This document shows, one piece after another, positions 3,435-61,191 of a stretch of DNA of 61,708 nt (the stretch's first letter is position 1; every line of letters begins with the position of its first letter). The DNA is from Candidatus Krumholzibacteriota bacterium (lineage in GTDB: Bacteria > Krumholzibacteriota > Krumholzibacteriia > LZORAL124-64-63), in the NCBI GenBank assembly GCA_024275485.1, contig JAJRZA010000012.1, forward strand, positions 1-61,708. The letters run 5' to 3'. The notes under the pieces were generated by a model. That model was not told where the DNA came from and searched no databases. It saw nothing but the letters and a program-made list of their open reading frames with translations. The translations under genes were made by a program, and so were the position numbers.

Positions 3435-4508
3435 TTACCGGTACAGGCTCTTAACGCCGTCGAAAGTAATGCTTTCGGTGGCGACAGTGCCCTCAAGGCC
3501 TACGAAGTCACTAACCCACATGTACTCGTTACCAACAAATCCGCCAGGAGCGGCGAAGACAGAAGGTCCAACCCACAGCCACACGATGGAACCAGGGGCG
3601 CCCTGGATAATCATGGTCGCGGGGGCACAGGGGCCAACCGTGATCTGATCGGCCACGGCAACAGCGCCACAGTCTTGGGGCTCGAGCAGGAAGCCAAGGG
3701 TCTCTTGCTCAGCATCAAGGGTCCACTCGAGAACACCAGTTGCACCGATCATGCCGATGAACCAGTCAGTGTCACGGGAGTTTCCGCCACCGTCATTGAG
3801 GTACCAGCCGGATTGGCCACAGTAGGTCAACATTTCGAACTCATTGGCAACAGGAAGAATCGAGAAGGGGTTGCCGAATTCGGGGCTGTTACAGCCACCA
3901 TTCCAGCTGTCCATGTAACCGTCTACGAGTTCAGGTTCGCCTTCGTCGTCGGGACAGTCAATGATGCAGGGAGGAGGAGGAGTGAAGGCCTCAATGTTCA
4001 AGATGTAATCGCCAGCGTCTCCACCATAACCGTCAATGACGATGTGGTAGGTGGTGCCACCAGTCAGGAATGCTTCTTCGATAAAGGAGACGTATACGCC
4101 ACAAACATCATCGAAGTAGAAATCGTCGTTACAGCCAACGACGGCCATTCCAGGACCATAGATGAAGGTCTTGGTGTCATAGCCAGAGCCACACAGGTCC
4201 ACGCTGATGATTTCATCAACTGCAGGAGTATAGGCATAAACTACATCAGCGCTGGTAGAGCCACCGTAAGGGCACGCTACATCGTAGTCATCGATGTTGT
4301 CGGAAGTATTGCCAGTGTCGGAAAAGGGAAGGCCGGGGATAACAACGGCGGTTCCGATGTCTTCTCCGCCTTCACGGCCGTCAGGGGTGCCGGGATTCAT
4401 ACCGACGTGGTAGTTGTCTTTGGTGTCCTTTGGCGTGTTGCCCAGATCAGCAGCAGCCGCGAAACCAACCAGAGCGATCATCAGCACAAACGCTAACAAG
4501 TGACGCAT
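3435..4508 (-). CDS. Secreted PPC-like protein with C-terminal TFDxxKSxYR tag
   Basis: The product is 357 residues with a clean signal peptide (MRHLLAFVLMIALVGFAAA) and is presumably exported. Residues about 45-160 resemble a PPC-type (peptidase pre-C-terminal) beta-sandwich: 'ADVVYAYTP', 'TFIYGPG', 'CNDD', 'YHIVIDGYGGDAGDYILNI'. A second beta-rich region with paired cysteines follows. The extreme C-terminus (ATESITFDGVKSLYR) nearly matches that of the unrelated-length secreted protein at 40605-41531. The ATG at 4508 was chosen because a GGGAGA ribosome site lies just upstream and the signal peptide begins there; the frame stays open to 4652 without extra signal. The function is unknown and there is no visible protease active site. 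Confidence 0.75.
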   Translation of the reverse strand: MRHLLAFVLMIALVGFAAAADLGNTPKDTKDNYHVGMNPGTPDGREGGEDIGTAVVIPGLPFSDTGNTSDNIDDYDVACPYGGSTSADVVYAYTPAVDEIISVDLCGSGYDTKTFIYGPGMAVVGCNDDFYFDDVCGVYVSFIEEAFLTGGTTYHIVIDGYGGDAGDYILNIEAFTPPPPCIIDCPDDEGEPELVDGYMDSWNGGCNSPEFGNPFSILPVANEFEMLTYCGQSGWYLNDGGGNSRDTDWFIGMIGATGVLEWTLDAEQETLGFLLEPQDCGAVAVADQITVGPCAPATMIIQGAPGSIVWLWVGPSVFAAPGGFVGNEYMWVSDFVGLEGTVATESITFDGVKSLYR

Positions 4509-40604: not shown

Positions 40605-41531
40605 TTACCGGTACATGCTCTTCAGGCTATCGAAGGTGGTGATTTCAGTGGAAACCACACAGTCCACGGTGACATACCAGATGCCCTCATAACCAGAGGA
40701 GCTGTAACCGTCGAGGATCAGGTAGTAGGTGCCGGGGTTGGCGCCGGCATCAAAGACCAAGGTCTCGGTGCCGGAGACGGTAGCATCGGCGCCGGCAACA
40801 CAGCTGCCTACGGGATCGCCACAGTCGGTTACCAAGTAGATGGCGTTGTCGAAGGTAGTCACGCCGGTGACGGTAAGCTGCTGGTTGGCAACCAGGTCAA
40901 CCATGTAAACCAGGTCCAGGCCATTGGCGCTGTAACCAGTGCAACCACCGGAGCCGGGGTTGTAATCGTTGGTTGCGCCGCAATTGTCCGCCGTGAAGGT
41001 TTGGCAGATGGGAAGGGGCAGGGCACCGTCGCAAGTGTTGTTGACAGGAGTTTCACAGGGAGGAGCGGCTTCGGTCATGGTCAGCAGGTATGTGCCGGTG
41101 CCACTGCTGCTGTAGTGAATGATCTGGACGTAAACGATTTCGCCGGCGCCAACAACAAAATCTTCGATCTTGCTGTAGAAACCAGTGCCGCCATCGTCAT
41201 TGAAGGCCAGCTGAGTGGTGCAATCGGCGGCGAAGATGTACATCTTGGTATCGCCGGCATCGCCCGGGTGGGTCTCAAAAGTATAGGTGCCACCGGCAGG
41301 GCTGGACACTTCGAACCAGTCCTGGTCGCCCGCAGGGTCGATGGCAGCGGAGTAGGTATCGCCTGCAGCGATAATATTGGCGGAACCACAGTCGTCATTG
41401 GGCTCGACTTCATCCATGTCAGCAAGGAAATCGACAGGAAGAACAGGTTTCTCAAGAGCAGGTTTTTCCGATGCATAAACAACACCGGTCATCAGCATGA
41501 CGGCCATCAAAGCAACAACAAACTTCTTCAT
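40605..41531 (-). CDS. Secreted PPC-like protein with C-terminal TFDxxKSxYR tag (second copy)
   Basis: The 308-residue protein has a signal peptide (KFVVALMAVMLMTGVVYA) and two PPC-like beta-sandwich units: 'ANIIAAGDTYSAAIDPAGDQDWFEVSSPAGGTYTFET' (about 40-130) and 'NGLDLVYMVDLVANQQLTV ... GTYYLILDGYSSSGYEG' (about 165-290). It ends 'STEITTFDSLKSMYR', nearly the same as the other tagged protein (9 of 15 identical, the rest similar). GGAGGGG precedes the ATG at 41531. No enzymatic motif is seen. Confidence 0.8.
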   Translation of the reverse strand: MKKFVVALMAVMLMTGVVYASEKPALEKPVLPVDFLADMDEVEPNDDCGSANIIAAGDTYSAAIDPAGDQDWFEVSSPAGGTYTFETHPGDAGDTKMYIFAADCTTQLAFNDDGGTGFYSKIEDFVVGAGEIVYVQIIHYSSSGTGTYLLTMTEAAPPCETPVNNTCDGALPLPICQTFTADNCGATNDYNPGSGGCTGYSANGLDLVYMVDLVANQQLTVTGVTTFDNAIYLVTDCGDPVGSCVAGADATVSGTETLVFDAGANPGTYYLILDGYSSSGYEGIWYVTVDCVVSTEITTFDSLKSMYR

Positions 41532-41862: not shown

Positions 41863-43659
41863 TTATCTCAAAATCGGTCTCAATTTCTCCAATATCGCTC
41901 CATCATCAATCAAGCCAATAGGATAAATTCCCACCCGCTGGTCGTAATATGGTGTTTTTTTGTAAAACCAGGAACGGATGGCCCAGGGATCGGTGGCGAA
42001 GTCCTGATCGTTCTGTTTCATTTCTTCCAATTCATCCAGCAAACCGGGATCTTCGCCAACCATTTCCCGAATCATGTTTTCGATGACATAAGACTCCACA
42101 TACTCAACCCGTTCGAAAATCGCATCCAGATAGCCCCAGCGAACCATTGAATCCGGCCCCAGTGGCTCCAGCAAGTGAGCCACCACCCTGGCAGAACGCT
42201 GATTCATATCCACAATCGCCGATCCTGCCGGAAAAACCCGCTCCTCCACCAAGGGATCCATTTCAAAACTCAAGGGATGATGCCCTTCGTAGGGATTTTC
42301 ACGCCACGTAGCCTCCTGAAACCGCCAAGTCCGGATTTCCAGTTCCACCGGTTCGACGAGGCGTCGGAATTCCACTCCATGCCACTGCAAACGATCGATG
42401 ACCACCTTCCATTCTGGAGGAATCACATAGGCTTCCGGCAACTTGGCTGTGAGATCAGGTTCCATCTCATCGTAAAACTCAATCTCCATGGTTGCGGGCT
42501 GGTCGCTGAAGACGAACCAATCGCCTCCGGTGATGTCGCTGGTCACTTTTTCATAGGACACCCCCAAAAATTCGAAGGGACGATGATTTTCCGTGTGTTT
42601 GAAGGTGAGGGGGTAGGGATCTTGCCGGAAAGCTTTGCTGGCCGTGTAGCGGTCGGCCTGCAAAATCAATTCGCGCAAGCTGCGGGCCTCGTTGTTCAGA
42701 TATCTCATGGTTTCAAGGACCAGTCGATGAGTCGAATCGACCCGGATCCGGTAGTCTTTCAACATGTGGGTTTCGATGAGCAGCCCAGGACGGTTTTGCA
42801 GGGCGGTGTACCCCTGGCTGAATCGCGGACCGGCCACCCAGGTGGACAACCCACTTCTTGGATCATGCCACTGGCGAAAGGAAACATAGGGTGCCAATGG
42901 GAATCCGGCCCCTAGCATCTCCTCCTCCATGGTGTCTCTGTATATAATAGTCCAGTCCGTGAGCCTGGCCTCCATGTTGCCGTGGGTTTCCAGACCGTAG
43001 GTGATGGCGTATTGGTAGTCGGCCCCGTCGGTGCTGTGGATGTCGATAAAAAAATCGGGTAACCATTGTTGATACAATGCCAGCCAGGCGCGCATCTCGG
43101 GAAGGTCGGCCTTGAGGAAATCCCGGTTCAGGTTTTGATTGCGCGCGGTGACCCGCCACCCCATCTCGTCCGGACCATTCTGGTTGATGCGATTGTAGGG
43201 ACCAAATCGTTCGTGCCCATCCACATTGAAAATGGGAATAAAAAGAAGTGTTACCTTTTCCAGCAACTCGGCTGCCACCCCCGGCTGGGTGGCCAACTCC
43301 CTGAGCAAAAGCATTCCTGCGTCCTTGCCGCAACTCTCACCCGCGTGGATGCAGGCCTGGACCAGGAGCACCACATGATCCTGACGGTCCAGGTGTAGAG
43401 AAGCGTCGAACCGCCCCTGATTGTCGGCAACGATCAGGGGAAGCTGCCGACCCTGGGGACTGAGACCAAAAGATGTCAATTGCAAAATCTCGCTTGAGGC
43501 CGCCAGCTCCTGGAACCAGGTCAGGGCTTCGTCATAGCCGGGGGTCTTCTTTCCACCGGAAGATTCGTATAGGGTTTCAAACTGCGGGGCGCTTAACCCA
43601 AGAGCAGGGAAGATTAAAAAAATAAGAGTCAGTGTTGTTTTCATTGCCGATTTGTCCAT
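41863..43659 (-). CDS. M14-family zinc carboxypeptidase, secreted
   Basis: The 598-residue protein has a signal peptide (TLTLIFLIFPALGLSA) and an M14 catalytic domain: 'ACIHAGESCGK' (His-x-x-Glu zinc pair), 'PIFNVDGHERF', 'RNQNLNRDF' (substrate-binding Asn-Arg) and 'DIHSTDGADY' (third ligand His). A beta-rich C-terminal half follows, as in the large M14 peptidases of Bacteroidetes-like bacteria. It likely trims peptides outside the cell. The ATG at 43659, after AAGGG, is chosen; a second ATG five codons on is possible. Confidence 0.9.
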   Translation of the reverse strand: MDKSAMKTTLTLIFLIFPALGLSAPQFETLYESSGGKKTPGYDEALTWFQELAASSEILQLTSFGLSPQGRQLPLIVADNQGRFDASLHLDRQDHVVLLVQACIHAGESCGKDAGMLLLRELATQPGVAAELLEKVTLLFIPIFNVDGHERFGPYNRINQNGPDEMGWRVTARNQNLNRDFLKADLPEMRAWLALYQQWLPDFFIDIHSTDGADYQYAITYGLETHGNMEARLTDWTIIYRDTMEEEMLGAGFPLAPYVSFRQWHDPRSGLSTWVAGPRFSQGYTALQNRPGLLIETHMLKDYRIRVDSTHRLVLETMRYLNNEARSLRELILQADRYTASKAFRQDPYPLTFKHTENHRPFEFLGVSYEKVTSDITGGDWFVFSDQPATMEIEFYDEMEPDLTAKLPEAYVIPPEWKVVIDRLQWHGVEFRRLVEPVELEIRTWRFQEATWRENPYEGHHPLSFEMDPLVEERVFPAGSAIVDMNQRSARVVAHLLEPLGPDSMVRWGYLDAIFERVEYVESYVIENMIREMVGEDPGLLDELEEMKQNDQDFATDPWAIRSWFYKKTPYYDQRVGIYPIGLIDDGAILEKLRPILR

Positions 43660-44399
43660 CTTTTTGCGGCCCTTGTTTCTGGAATTATTTGGAACTCCAT
43701 TGCTCCCTGTCATGCAAATTTCAAGACATAGCCCAGTGACAAAACCACCATTCTGCCAATCCCAAAGGGCCTTTTGGTTCTTCTTGAAACCCATGTGGAA
43801 ACCTTGGCTTCATGATCGGGGCAACCTTTCCCGCCCATACTAGGGCCGATGAAACCAGCGGGCGACTTTTCTTTTTGCACCATTCCACCGGCCGGTTGCT
43901 TCTGCAATTCCATTCAGAGTGGCGGATTTTCCAAAGACACTTACTGAAATCCTAATATCATTATGGGCGAAATTAGATGTTGACAGACTTGTCCTATTCC
44001 ACAGAAAATGCGTTTAGGCACTGGTTGTGTCTTGGCAAAACTCGATCCTTTCTGGCAGCGTCTCTCTTTCACGTTATTGGAGGACGCCTACCAGGGGAAG
44101 AGCGAATGCAGACTGACTTTAAAATCGCAGGAAATTCCCCGGGCCTTTCACCTTGATTCTTGTATTCGAGAAAAGGTCTTATTGGGATTTTTTGTGCATG
44201 AGTCCGGTTTGAAAACGCAACGTAGATTTACCACACAACCAGACTCACGGAGAGACGCCCTTACTGTGTTGCGATGATTTGTTGCAAGGAACATTGGGGT
44301 TTGTTGTGACAAGGGTTTCGATGTCCCGGTCGGGATTATCGAAAGTTCTGAAAGGTGCACCTTTCGGAATCACTACAGTGGATTTCAAGGAGGTCCAAA
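43660..44399. other. Long upstream region before the first porin
   Basis: About 740 bp without a convincing gene. It contains the box AGGCACTGGTTGTGTCTTGG around 44016, shared in modified form with the leader of the second porin, the 16-bp palindrome at 44350-44365, and the ribosome site at 44387. The promoters for the divergent M14 and porin genes should also be here. Confidence 0.55.
44350..44365. promoter_or_regulatory. Perfect 16-bp palindrome in the porin leader
   Basis: GAAAGGTG is followed directly by its reverse complement CACCTTTC. The dyad ends about 20 bases before the AAGGAGGT ribosome site. As DNA it could bind a dimeric repressor; as RNA it would form a tight hairpin with little loop, so the DNA role is more plausible. 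Confidence 0.5.
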
Positions 44400-58235: not shown

Positions 58236-58680
58236 GGTAGCTTCCCATCCTCAATCCAGCTCCAATGCTTGTCTGGATTTTATAGTATTTGGATCGTTTT
58301 TATCCTAATTAATAAATGAAATCTACAATTAAAAAGTTTACCCCGCAACGCAGCTTCAAAATTCTCTGAAAATCCTCCCGCAAAGGGCGACCCACTTTTT
58401 TTCTCCAATGAAAACAAATTTTCTCAGGTTTTTTTCCCAATATTTTTTTTGAGGCTTAACTCCTACCAGGACCATCACTTCTCAGCAAATCATGCCCAAA
58501 ATTCAAAAACCTCCCCTTTTGTGATAGATTCATCTCAGACAAATAATAAATTATTTCATATAATAATCTAACAAAACAGTAGGCCAATAGAGTATAATAT
58601 CAAAAACTGGTGGTGATGCATTCCAAATTATTGTAAACTCGTATGAGTTAACTGTCTCCCCCTTCCACAAGAGGTTGAAA
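58236..58680. other. AT-rich divergent promoter region before the secreted protease
   Basis: About 445 bp of clearly AT-rich sequence with no gene separates the divergent oxidase operon and protease gene. A TATAAT hexamer lies at 58593-58598, about 80 bp before the protease start. Its -35 position (58570-58575) is poor, so the promoter assignment is tentative. Confidence 0.55.
58593..58598 (+). promoter_or_regulatory. Candidate -10 box of the protease gene
   Basis: TATAAT on the coding strand with a weak upstream -35. Transcription would start near 58605 and give a leader of about 75 bases. An activator may be needed. Confidence 0.4.
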
Positions 58681-61191
58681 ATGAGTCTCGTTAAAATCCC
58701 CTGTTCGACTCAGATTGTCCGGGGCATTGCCCTGATTTCTCTGATTGCTCTGGCCGGTATCGCCACCGCTGCCAGCCCATTGGCCCTGGAAGGCCCCGTT
58801 GGCCCCACTCTGGCCGAAAAAGCCACCAATAGCCTATCCGCATTCAACGCCAACACGGTGGATGAAACCAAAGAACGCGCCGAAGATCTCGTGCGCGAAG
58901 AAGAAGGTCTTCCCCCGCGGTTTGCCATCCCTCAACTGGTCAGCATCAATCCCGAGACCGATGGCTCCTGGGAAAACCTCGACTCCGGTTACCAGCTTTG
59001 GCGCCTTCGCGTTCAGGCTCCCGGTGCCCTGAGCCTGAACTTTGGCTTCACCGGCTACGAGCTGCCCAAGAACTCCCGTCTGAGCATCTACCCCACCGAC
59101 TATGTGGGCCTGGAAGATGTGCGCGGCGTTCGTGTTTTCACCGAATTCGACAACGACGCCCACGGTGAACTGTGGACTCCTGTGGTGATCAGCGACGATG
59201 TCGTCATTGAGCTGCTCATTCCCGCCGCCTCCCGCGGTGATTACACTCTGCGTCTGGGCTCCATCAACAACGGTTACCGCTTCTTTGGTGAAGACCTGTT
59301 CGACAAATCCGGCTCCTGCAACAACGACGTTATCTGCCCCATTGGGGACGACTGGCGCAGCGAAATCAACTCCGTTGGCGTCATCTCAACCGGTGGCGGT
59401 ACTTTTTGCACCGGTAGCATGCTGAACAACACCGCCGAAGACGGGTCCCCCTACTTCCTGACCGCCAACCACTGTGGCATCAACACCGCCAACGACCAGT
59501 CCCTGGTTGTCTACTGGAACTTCCAGAGCCCCGTTTGTGGTCAGCAGGGCGGCGGTTCCCTGAGCGATTTCCAGACTGGTTCAACCCACCTGGCCAGCAG
59601 CTCCGCTTCGGATTTCACGCTGGTTCTGATGGATGATCCCGTGAACCCAGATCACAATGTGACTTTCGGCGGTTGGGACCGCAGCGACAACGACGCCACC
59701 AGCGCCGTGGCCATCCACCACCCGAACACTGATGAGAAAAGCATCAGCTTCGAGTACGATCCCACCACCACGACTACTTACCTGCAGAACGCTGTGCCCG
59801 GCAACGGAACCCACATCCGCGTCACCGATTGGGACGACGGAACCACCGAACCCGGGTCCTCCGGTTCCCCCTTGTACGACCAGAACCACCGCGTTATCGG
59901 TCAGTTGCATGGTGGTTATGCCTCCTGCTCCAGCCAGACTTCCGATTGGTATGGCCGTTTTTCCGTGTCCTTCCCTGCCATTGCCCAGTACCTGGATCCG
60001 CTGAACACCGGCGACATGGCCATCGACACCTTCGATCCCGGCGCCGTCGGCCTGAAGGTCACTCCAAGCAGTCCCTTTATCTCCCAGGGTAACTCCGGCG
60101 GTCCTTTCACTCCTTCGAGCAAAGACTACACCCTGGTCAACCAAAGCGACTTCCCTCTGAACTATTCCGTGACCAGTGATGCGAACTGGGCCACCGTCGC
60201 CGACGGCAGCGGCACCCTTGCCGTGGGTGGAACCGCCATCATCACCGTCTCGATCAACAGCAACGCCGACGCCTTTGGCAACGGTACCTACAACGGCCGG
60301 ATCAGTTTCCTCAACCTCACCGACGGTGAAGGCGATACCATTCGTATCGTCAACCTGCAGGTGGGTGTGCCCGAAATGGTTTACAGCTACAACATGGACA
60401 CAGACCCCCAGTGGACCATGGAGGGCCAATGGGCCTACGGGACCCCCACCGGTAATGGCGGTGTGGACCACGGAAACGCCGACCCCAGCAGTGGCGCCAC
60501 CGGCATCTATGTCATTGGTTACAACCTGAACGGCGACTACACCAACGACATGCCTGAAACCCACATGACCACCTCAGCCATCGACATCACCGACCTTTCC
60601 GCGGTCAGTGTGAAATTCCAGCGATACCTGAACGTGGAACAACCCGCCTACGATCATGCTCACCTGAAGGTCAGCACCGACGGTTCCAGCTTCACCAGTG
60701 TCTGGAGCAACGGCGGAGAAGTCACCGACAGTGGTTGGACCCAATATGAATACGATCTGAGCGCGGTAGTCGCCGGAGCCTCCACCATGTACCTGCGCTG
60801 GACCATGGGCACCACCGACAGCAGCTGGTTGTACAGTGGCTGGAACATCGACGATGTGGAGATCTGGGGCCTGCGCCCGAGCAACGATCTCTCCGGCGTG
60901 GATGGCGTTCCCGGTTACAAAATGAGTTTGGGCAACTACCCCAACCCATTCAACCCCATGACCCAGGTTTCCTTCGCCATCGAAGCTGACGGTCATGCCA
61001 TGATCAACATCTACAATGTGCAGGGACAGCTTGTGCGCCGTCTGGTTGACGGCAACCTGGCTGCCGGCACCCATCAGGTGACCTGGGACGGACGCGACCA
61101 GTCCGGCCTGCAGGTTGGCAGTGGCGTGTACTTTGCCCGCCTGATCTCGGGTGGACAGATTGCCGAGCACAAGATGGTTCTCTTGAAATAA
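58681..61191 (+). CDS. Secreted trypsin-like serine protease with FlgD-like C-terminal domain
   Basis: The 836-residue protein has a signal peptide (GIALISLIALAGIATA), an N-terminal propeptide-like region (about 30-210), a trypsin-like catalytic domain ('GTFCTGSMLNN', His in 'LTANHCG', Asp in 'SDFTLVLMDDP', Ser in 'EPGSSGSPLYD'), a BACON-like beta domain ('PFTPSSKDYTLVNQSDFPLNYSV') and a jelly-roll-like region. The last 80 residues have 'NYPNPFNPMTQVSF' and 'GQLVRRLVDGNLAAGTHQVTWDGRD', the FlgD-like/type-A sorting tail common in FCB bacteria. The ATG at 58681 follows GAGGT; the in-frame TTG at 58675 overlaps the site. Confidence 0.93.
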   Translation: MSLVKIPCSTQIVRGIALISLIALAGIATAASPLALEGPVGPTLAEKATNSLSAFNANTVDETKERAEDLVREEEGLPPRFAIPQLVSINPETDGSWENLDSGYQLWRLRVQAPGALSLNFGFTGYELPKNSRLSIYPTDYVGLEDVRGVRVFTEFDNDAHGELWTPVVISDDVVIELLIPAASRGDYTLRLGSINNGYRFFGEDLFDKSGSCNNDVICPIGDDWRSEINSVGVISTGGGTFCTGSMLNNTAEDGSPYFLTANHCGINTANDQSLVVYWNFQSPVCGQQGGGSLSDFQTGSTHLASSSASDFTLVLMDDPVNPDHNVTFGGWDRSDNDATSAVAIHHPNTDEKSISFEYDPTTTTTYLQNAVPGNGTHIRVTDWDDGTTEPGSSGSPLYDQNHRVIGQLHGGYASCSSQTSDWYGRFSVSFPAIAQYLDPLNTGDMAIDTFDPGAVGLKVTPSSPFISQGNSGGPFTPSSKDYTLVNQSDFPLNYSVTSDANWATVADGSGTLAVGGTAIITVSINSNADAFGNGTYNGRISFLNLTDGEGDTIRIVNLQVGVPEMVYSYNMDTDPQWTMEGQWAYGTPTGNGGVDHGNADPSSGATGIYVIGYNLNGDYTNDMPETHMTTSAIDITDLSAVSVKFQRYLNVEQPAYDHAHLKVSTDGSSFTSVWSNGGEVTDSGWTQYEYDLSAVVAGASTMYLRWTMGTTDSSWLYSGWNIDDVEIWGLRPSNDLSGVDGVPGYKMSLGNYPNPFNPMTQVSFAIEADGHAMINIYNVQGQLVRRLVDGNLAAGTHQVTWDGRDQSGLQVGSGVYFARLISGGQIAEHKMVLLK

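Follow-up and report, generated by a model that had tools for sequence, protein, structure and literature searches.

The window analysed here, a stretch of 61,708 nucleotides of Krumholzibacteriota DNA, encodes two exported proteins that end almost identically (Table 1). The spans and the minus strand given for both genes in the first-pass annotation are correct, with stop codons at 3435-3437 (protein 1) and 40605-40607 (protein 2). As that annotation had reported, the tails ATESITFDGVKSLYR and STEITTFDSLKSMYR, each running directly into its stop codon, share 9 of 15 residues, the bodies differ (22% identity over the full length), and a signal peptide is evident on both proteins. The PPC-like domains that it had assigned to both proteins stood for only one of them: protein 2 matches the Pfam PPC family with 26.7 bits (cut-off 25.9), whereas a Pfam and NCBIfam search with protein 1 returned no match. 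When all 3391 stop codons of the window were scored for the motif, only these two tails reached 7/7, the next best score being 4. The serines in both tails are encoded by AGC. Just upstream of the gene for protein 2 and on the same strand lies a gene for an M14 zinc carboxypeptidase (41863-43794, minus strand). Some M14 enzymes remove C-terminal Lys or Arg, so a link between this carboxypeptidase and the tag is conceivable.

Table 1. Features of the two tagged genes and of an untagged gene for contrast, in window coordinates.
Feature	Position	Strand	Basis
Tagged exported protein 1, 357 aa, without recognised domain family	3435..4508	-	Translation, Pfam/NCBIfam search
Protein 1, Sec signal peptide MRHLLAFVLMIALVGFAAA, end approximate	4452..4508	-	Sequence inspection and heuristic score
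Protein 1, linker and C-terminal tag ATESI-TFDGVKSLYR, stop codon immediately after	3438..3482	-	
Tagged exported protein 2, 308 aa, PPC domain	40605..41531	-	
Protein 2, Sec signal peptide MKKFVVALMAVMLMTGVVYA, end approximate	41472..41531	-	Sequence inspection and heuristic score
Protein 2, PPC domain, Pfam PF04151, residues 208-273	40713..40910	-	Pfam match
Protein 2, linker and C-terminal tag STEIT-TFDSLKSMYR, stop codon immediately after	40608..40652	-	
Contrast, untagged: trypsin-like protein, choice-of-anchor J, T9SS type A sorting domain (CTD ~60937-61179)	58675..61191	+	TIGR04183, 36.1 bits (cut-off 23)

The same ending recurs across the source genome. In its 3.98 Mb, the pattern [VIL]K[x][x][YF]R-stop matched 46 times, compared with 7 matches for the reversed pattern, and the strict pattern that includes W/F matched 17 times, compared with none; nearly all pattern matches are the C-termini of ORFs of 150-400 aa with signal peptides. 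The first-pass annotation had suggested a profile search for further carriers, and there are many: about 40 proteins of this genome, most of them with a signal peptide, end exactly in a tag of 10-16 residues. Aligning 39 of the tails gives the consensus V-[AS]-T-E-x-x-[TS]-[WF]-[DG]-x-[VIL]-K-[SA]-[LM]-[YF]-R, in which K(-5) and R(-1) are invariant. The conservation of K, Y/F and R is not independent evidence, because the search pattern set these residues; positions that the search left free are also conserved, namely W/F(-9) in 28/32 tails, V(-16) in 27/32, E(-13) in 22/32 and L/M(-3) in 25/32. At the end of the tag all six arginine codons and all three stop codons are in use, which indicates that selection acts on the protein. 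Signal peptides, called here by a simple hydrophobicity heuristic and not by SignalP, were predicted for 28 of 32 tagged ORFs versus 153 of 422 untagged ones (Fisher p ~1e-8). The stop codon directly follows the arginine, though a few carriers have one extra residue; paralogues of tagged proteins ending in VKALYRP-stop (L061:10639-11202) and IKSMYRE-stop (L082:4501-5433) imply that the arginine need not always be the very last residue.

What generally characterizes the cargo is its variety. The 39 tagged proteins cover at least 12 unrelated domain families, among them beta-helix, lamin-tail, PKD, thioredoxin/TlpA, lectin C, PPC, DUF4350, GEVED, ExeM-like, choice-of-anchor C and choice-of-anchor R, and no family is common to more than two of them. 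The carriers are thus neither few nor ordinary full-length paralogues, the two outcomes that the first-pass annotation had named as speaking against a shared signal. Tagged proteins are small, with a median of 216 aa in the source genome and of 250 aa at the named loci (maximum 464), where FlgD-tailed proteins have a median of ~840 aa. No tail model in Pfam or NCBIfam was matched by many of the 39 proteins, and the tag is therefore absent from these libraries.

The family of protein 2 illustrates how the tail behaves over larger distances. Searching its family with protein 2 (40608-41531) gave 33 different homologues that have a tail at the C-terminus; the query included the tail, which slightly favours tailed homologues, and the scores are carried by the aligned bodies. 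All 33, one of which has an extra residue, retain K(-5) and an aromatic residue at -2, and the last residue is R in 28, K in 4 and N in 1, while body identity drops to 25-30%. Five related PPC domains, found in longer proteins of other genomes, carry a T9SS type A domain instead of the tag; tag and type A domain hence interchange on related PPC domains. A sixth related PPC domain, in the source genome, contains an internal stop codon. Because the tail is kept while the body diverges and related PPC domains bear a T9SS domain in its place, the tag behaves like a signal for sorting or docking.

How does the tag compare with known C-terminal tails? AlphaFold2 models residues 238-246 of a tagged Eisenbacteria protein as a helix that stands off the beta body, with a pLDDT below 50 for residues 234-247. 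The aligned tails lack a hydrophobic stretch, in line with the first-pass annotation, which knew of no described system with this signature. No Pfam or NCBIfam tail model covers it, and searches of an open-access library found no description of the motif or of such sorting signals in these phyla. PEP-CTERM, LPXTG, GlyGly-CTERM and MYXO-CTERM tails consist of a hydrophobic segment and a basic end and are read by a membrane enzyme. They are similar to the tag as short recurrent tails on many unrelated exported proteins per genome, but the tag has neither the hydrophobic segment nor the basic end. The T9SS type A domain (TIGR04183, PF18962) is likewise C-terminal, sits on varied Sec-exported carriers and on related PPC domains, and occurs in the same genomes; however, it is a beta-sandwich of 70-80 residues on large carriers (~840 aa), whereas the tag spans 10-16 residues, is modelled as a helix, matches no model and sits on carriers with a median of 216-250 aa. 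Prevotella intermedia offers a shortened C-terminal T9SS signal, with domains of 40-55 residues, three predicted beta-strands and the motifs B, D and E (PMC11969387). As far as length and modelled structure go, the tag is shorter than this, with a conserved part of ~16 residues and a helix in a low-confidence model. The type B domains, which are served by PorP/SprF shuttles and not by PorV, are a precedent for a second kind of tail that the T9SS can read via other shuttles (PMC12618676); the type B tail differs from the tag, and linkage between type B genes and shuttle genes is common (PMC12618676), while tagged genes had no linked barrel gene at ~150 loci.

Beyond the source genome, the tag extends over several phyla. 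The strict W/F pattern yielded ~890 tags and no reversed match, with 73 of 78 genomes positive, and a genome-collection scan for T-W-[GD]..[VIL]Kx[LM]YR-stop matched at least 117 stretches. Among the matches listed, nearly all belong to MAGs labelled Eisenbacteria, Krumholzibacteriota, Latescibacterota or unnamed bacteria, and single MAGs are labelled Zixibacteria, Gemmatimonadota, Kerfeldbacteria, Rokubacteria and Planctomycetota. Two of these labels probably reflect contamination: the three Planctomycetota tags all lie on one contig, and the Rokubacteria MAG shares its sampling site with an Eisenbacteria MAG. Within Krumholzibacteriota (80 genomes, all of one class), tag copies are numerous in two families, f1 and f2, and scarce in the others. 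The tag pattern also occurs on six IMG/VR contigs. On the IMG/VR contigs L063 and L064, which are labelled viral, a metallophosphoesterase with signal peptide and tag adjoins a large shared ORF, and these tagged proteins are possibly phage-carried.

The Kerfeldbacteria tags deserve separate consideration. Three of the four genomes of one family carry the tag, typically as TWGHLKS[LI]YR, with four copies on four contigs in G114 and one copy each in G096 and G100. Across 381 genomes of the class (CPR), clear W-type tags are confined to this family and to G142 and G326, all other matches occurring at the control rate. The genomes are MAGs, and contamination would be one explanation; it is opposed by the presence of the tag in three of the four genomes and by a gene neighbourhood common to G114 and G100, in which the tagged gene is accompanied by a GH1 glycosidase and beta-helix-type proteins. 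Contamination is therefore unlikely, and the tags are probably genuine. One tagged contig of G114 also carries genes that we read as those for ribosomal protein S15 and PNPase. In G096, G100 and G114 we found no match to SprA or PorV and at most one to C25.

What, then, reads the tag? The first-pass annotation had pointed out FlgD-like tails in the same genome and proposed that two routes may coexist. Such tails are plentiful: T9SS type A tails number 116 in the source genome, among them that of the protein given as 58681-61191, and the two routes likely coexist. Together with a SprA gene, these tails indicate that the T9SS reaches Krumholzibacteriota; in a SprA tree, the protein of the source genome groups with those of Krumholzibacteriia SW_4_19 and DOLZORAL124_64_63, to which it is 55-65% identical, a placement that makes Krumholzibacteriota the most likely phylum on this evidence too. 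The first-pass annotation had envisaged a peptidase or translocase whose presence follows the tag; none emerged from neighbour clustering of tagged genes (~150 loci, no recurrent partner gene), from the SprA neighbourhoods of 20 genomes (no tag-linked gene) or from the T9SS parts of the panel genomes, where neither SprA, C25, type A tail count nor PorV copy number tracks tag number. In the SprA neighbourhoods (L190-L209), SprA has a divergent LptF/LptG-like pair next to it and, in many cases, an M28 peptidase similar to glutaminyl cyclase.

The tag could be a minimal T9SS signal, read by SprA and a shuttle of the expanded PorV family, with small cargo exported via the tag and large cargo via the type A domain. 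The distribution of T9SS parts agrees with this: SprA was found in 43 of 48 panel genomes, including all likely tag users outside Kerfeldbacteria, C25 (PorU-type) peptidases in 39 of 42 genomes, and 7-24 members of the PorV family in each of 28 of 33 genomes, an expansion of these shuttles in the tag-bearing phyla. That related PPC domains bear either the tag or the type A domain points the same way, as do the 40-55-aa domains of P. intermedia (PMC11969387) and the non-PorV shuttles for type B (PMC12618676). Since all tag-rich genomes checked also have a full T9SS, co-occurrence does not separate the tag from this route. However, the Kerfeldbacteria tags, probably genuine, occur in genomes without a match to SprA or PorV, which weakens a strict dependence on the T9SS and counts for another receptor. 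Moreover, TIGR04183, PF18962 and TIGR04131 are not among the families matched by the 39 tagged proteins, while the control at 58675-61191 does match; the tag is far shorter than these tails and modelled as a helix, not as strands; and the number of tags differs between genomes (~0 to 56), yet type A tails are plentiful in all of them (36-148). We regard a minimal T9SS signal as rather unlikely and rank it below a dedicated receptor, which we propose tentatively.

Whatever the receptor, that the tag serves in sorting or docking is very likely. It stands at the exact C-terminus of proteins with signal peptides and varied cargo, is conserved in a fast-changing family and interchanges with the type A domain; the many unrelated exported carriers, the extreme C-terminal position and the lack of a known model support the first-pass reading of a sorting or processing signal. 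For the helix, the receptor and the final location of the tagged proteins, we infer the following arrangement. The small proteins (median ~220-250 aa) would leave via Sec and fold in the envelope, leaving the tag exposed with a free C-terminus. The tag would consist of a linker that is short and flexible (in many cases V-[AS]-T-E) and, after it, an amphipathic helix of ~9 residues, [TS]-[WF]-[DG]-x-[VIL]-K-[SA]-[LM]-[YF]-R, with nothing past the arginine. A receptor would bind the exposed tag and deliver the protein into the outer membrane or beyond it. We favour such a receptor-read tag as the probable explanation. A conserved exact C-terminus with an amphipathic pattern would generally also suit end-recognition by a chaperone or protease, and the tag might act in assembly or stability, docking proteins to each other or to a periplasmic chaperone, or shielding the C-terminus from proteases, with no effect on location; but the cargo has no other feature in common, and some related PPC domains have a true sorting domain where others have the tag, which makes this improbable. 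Coincidence, low-complexity sequence or a feature acting at the RNA level, for instance a terminator that overlaps the ends of the genes, has only the shortness of the motif in its favour, against ~890 strict matches and no reversed ones in 78 genomes, residues that are fixed while codons vary freely, and chance matches as rare as the control in the 381 CPR genomes; we consider its probability negligible.

PEP-CTERM and T9SS domain tails each led to a new sorting machine. The tag, present on hundreds of proteins in several uncultured phyla, predicts surface or secreted proteins of bacteria that nobody has in culture and points to a receptor yet to be identified. It may, though we advance this with still more reserve than the dedicated receptor, belong to an envelope sorting or surface-docking system that is separate from the T9SS and common to several diderm candidate phyla and some Patescibacteria (Kerfeldbacteria). 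Because a Patescibacteria lineage in which no T9SS was detected also uses the tag, whether a separate route exists can be tested directly; if it does, Kerfeldbacteria may direct tagged proteins to their own envelope or to a host able to read the tag as well. Kerfeldbacteria possibly have a second conserved tail as well: at the loci L265, L266, L270 and L271, several long exported proteins stop after D-x-x-x-P-x-[AG]-V-x-[ND]-L-x-[AV]-x, an end stretch similar to the beginning of a fibronectin type III domain.
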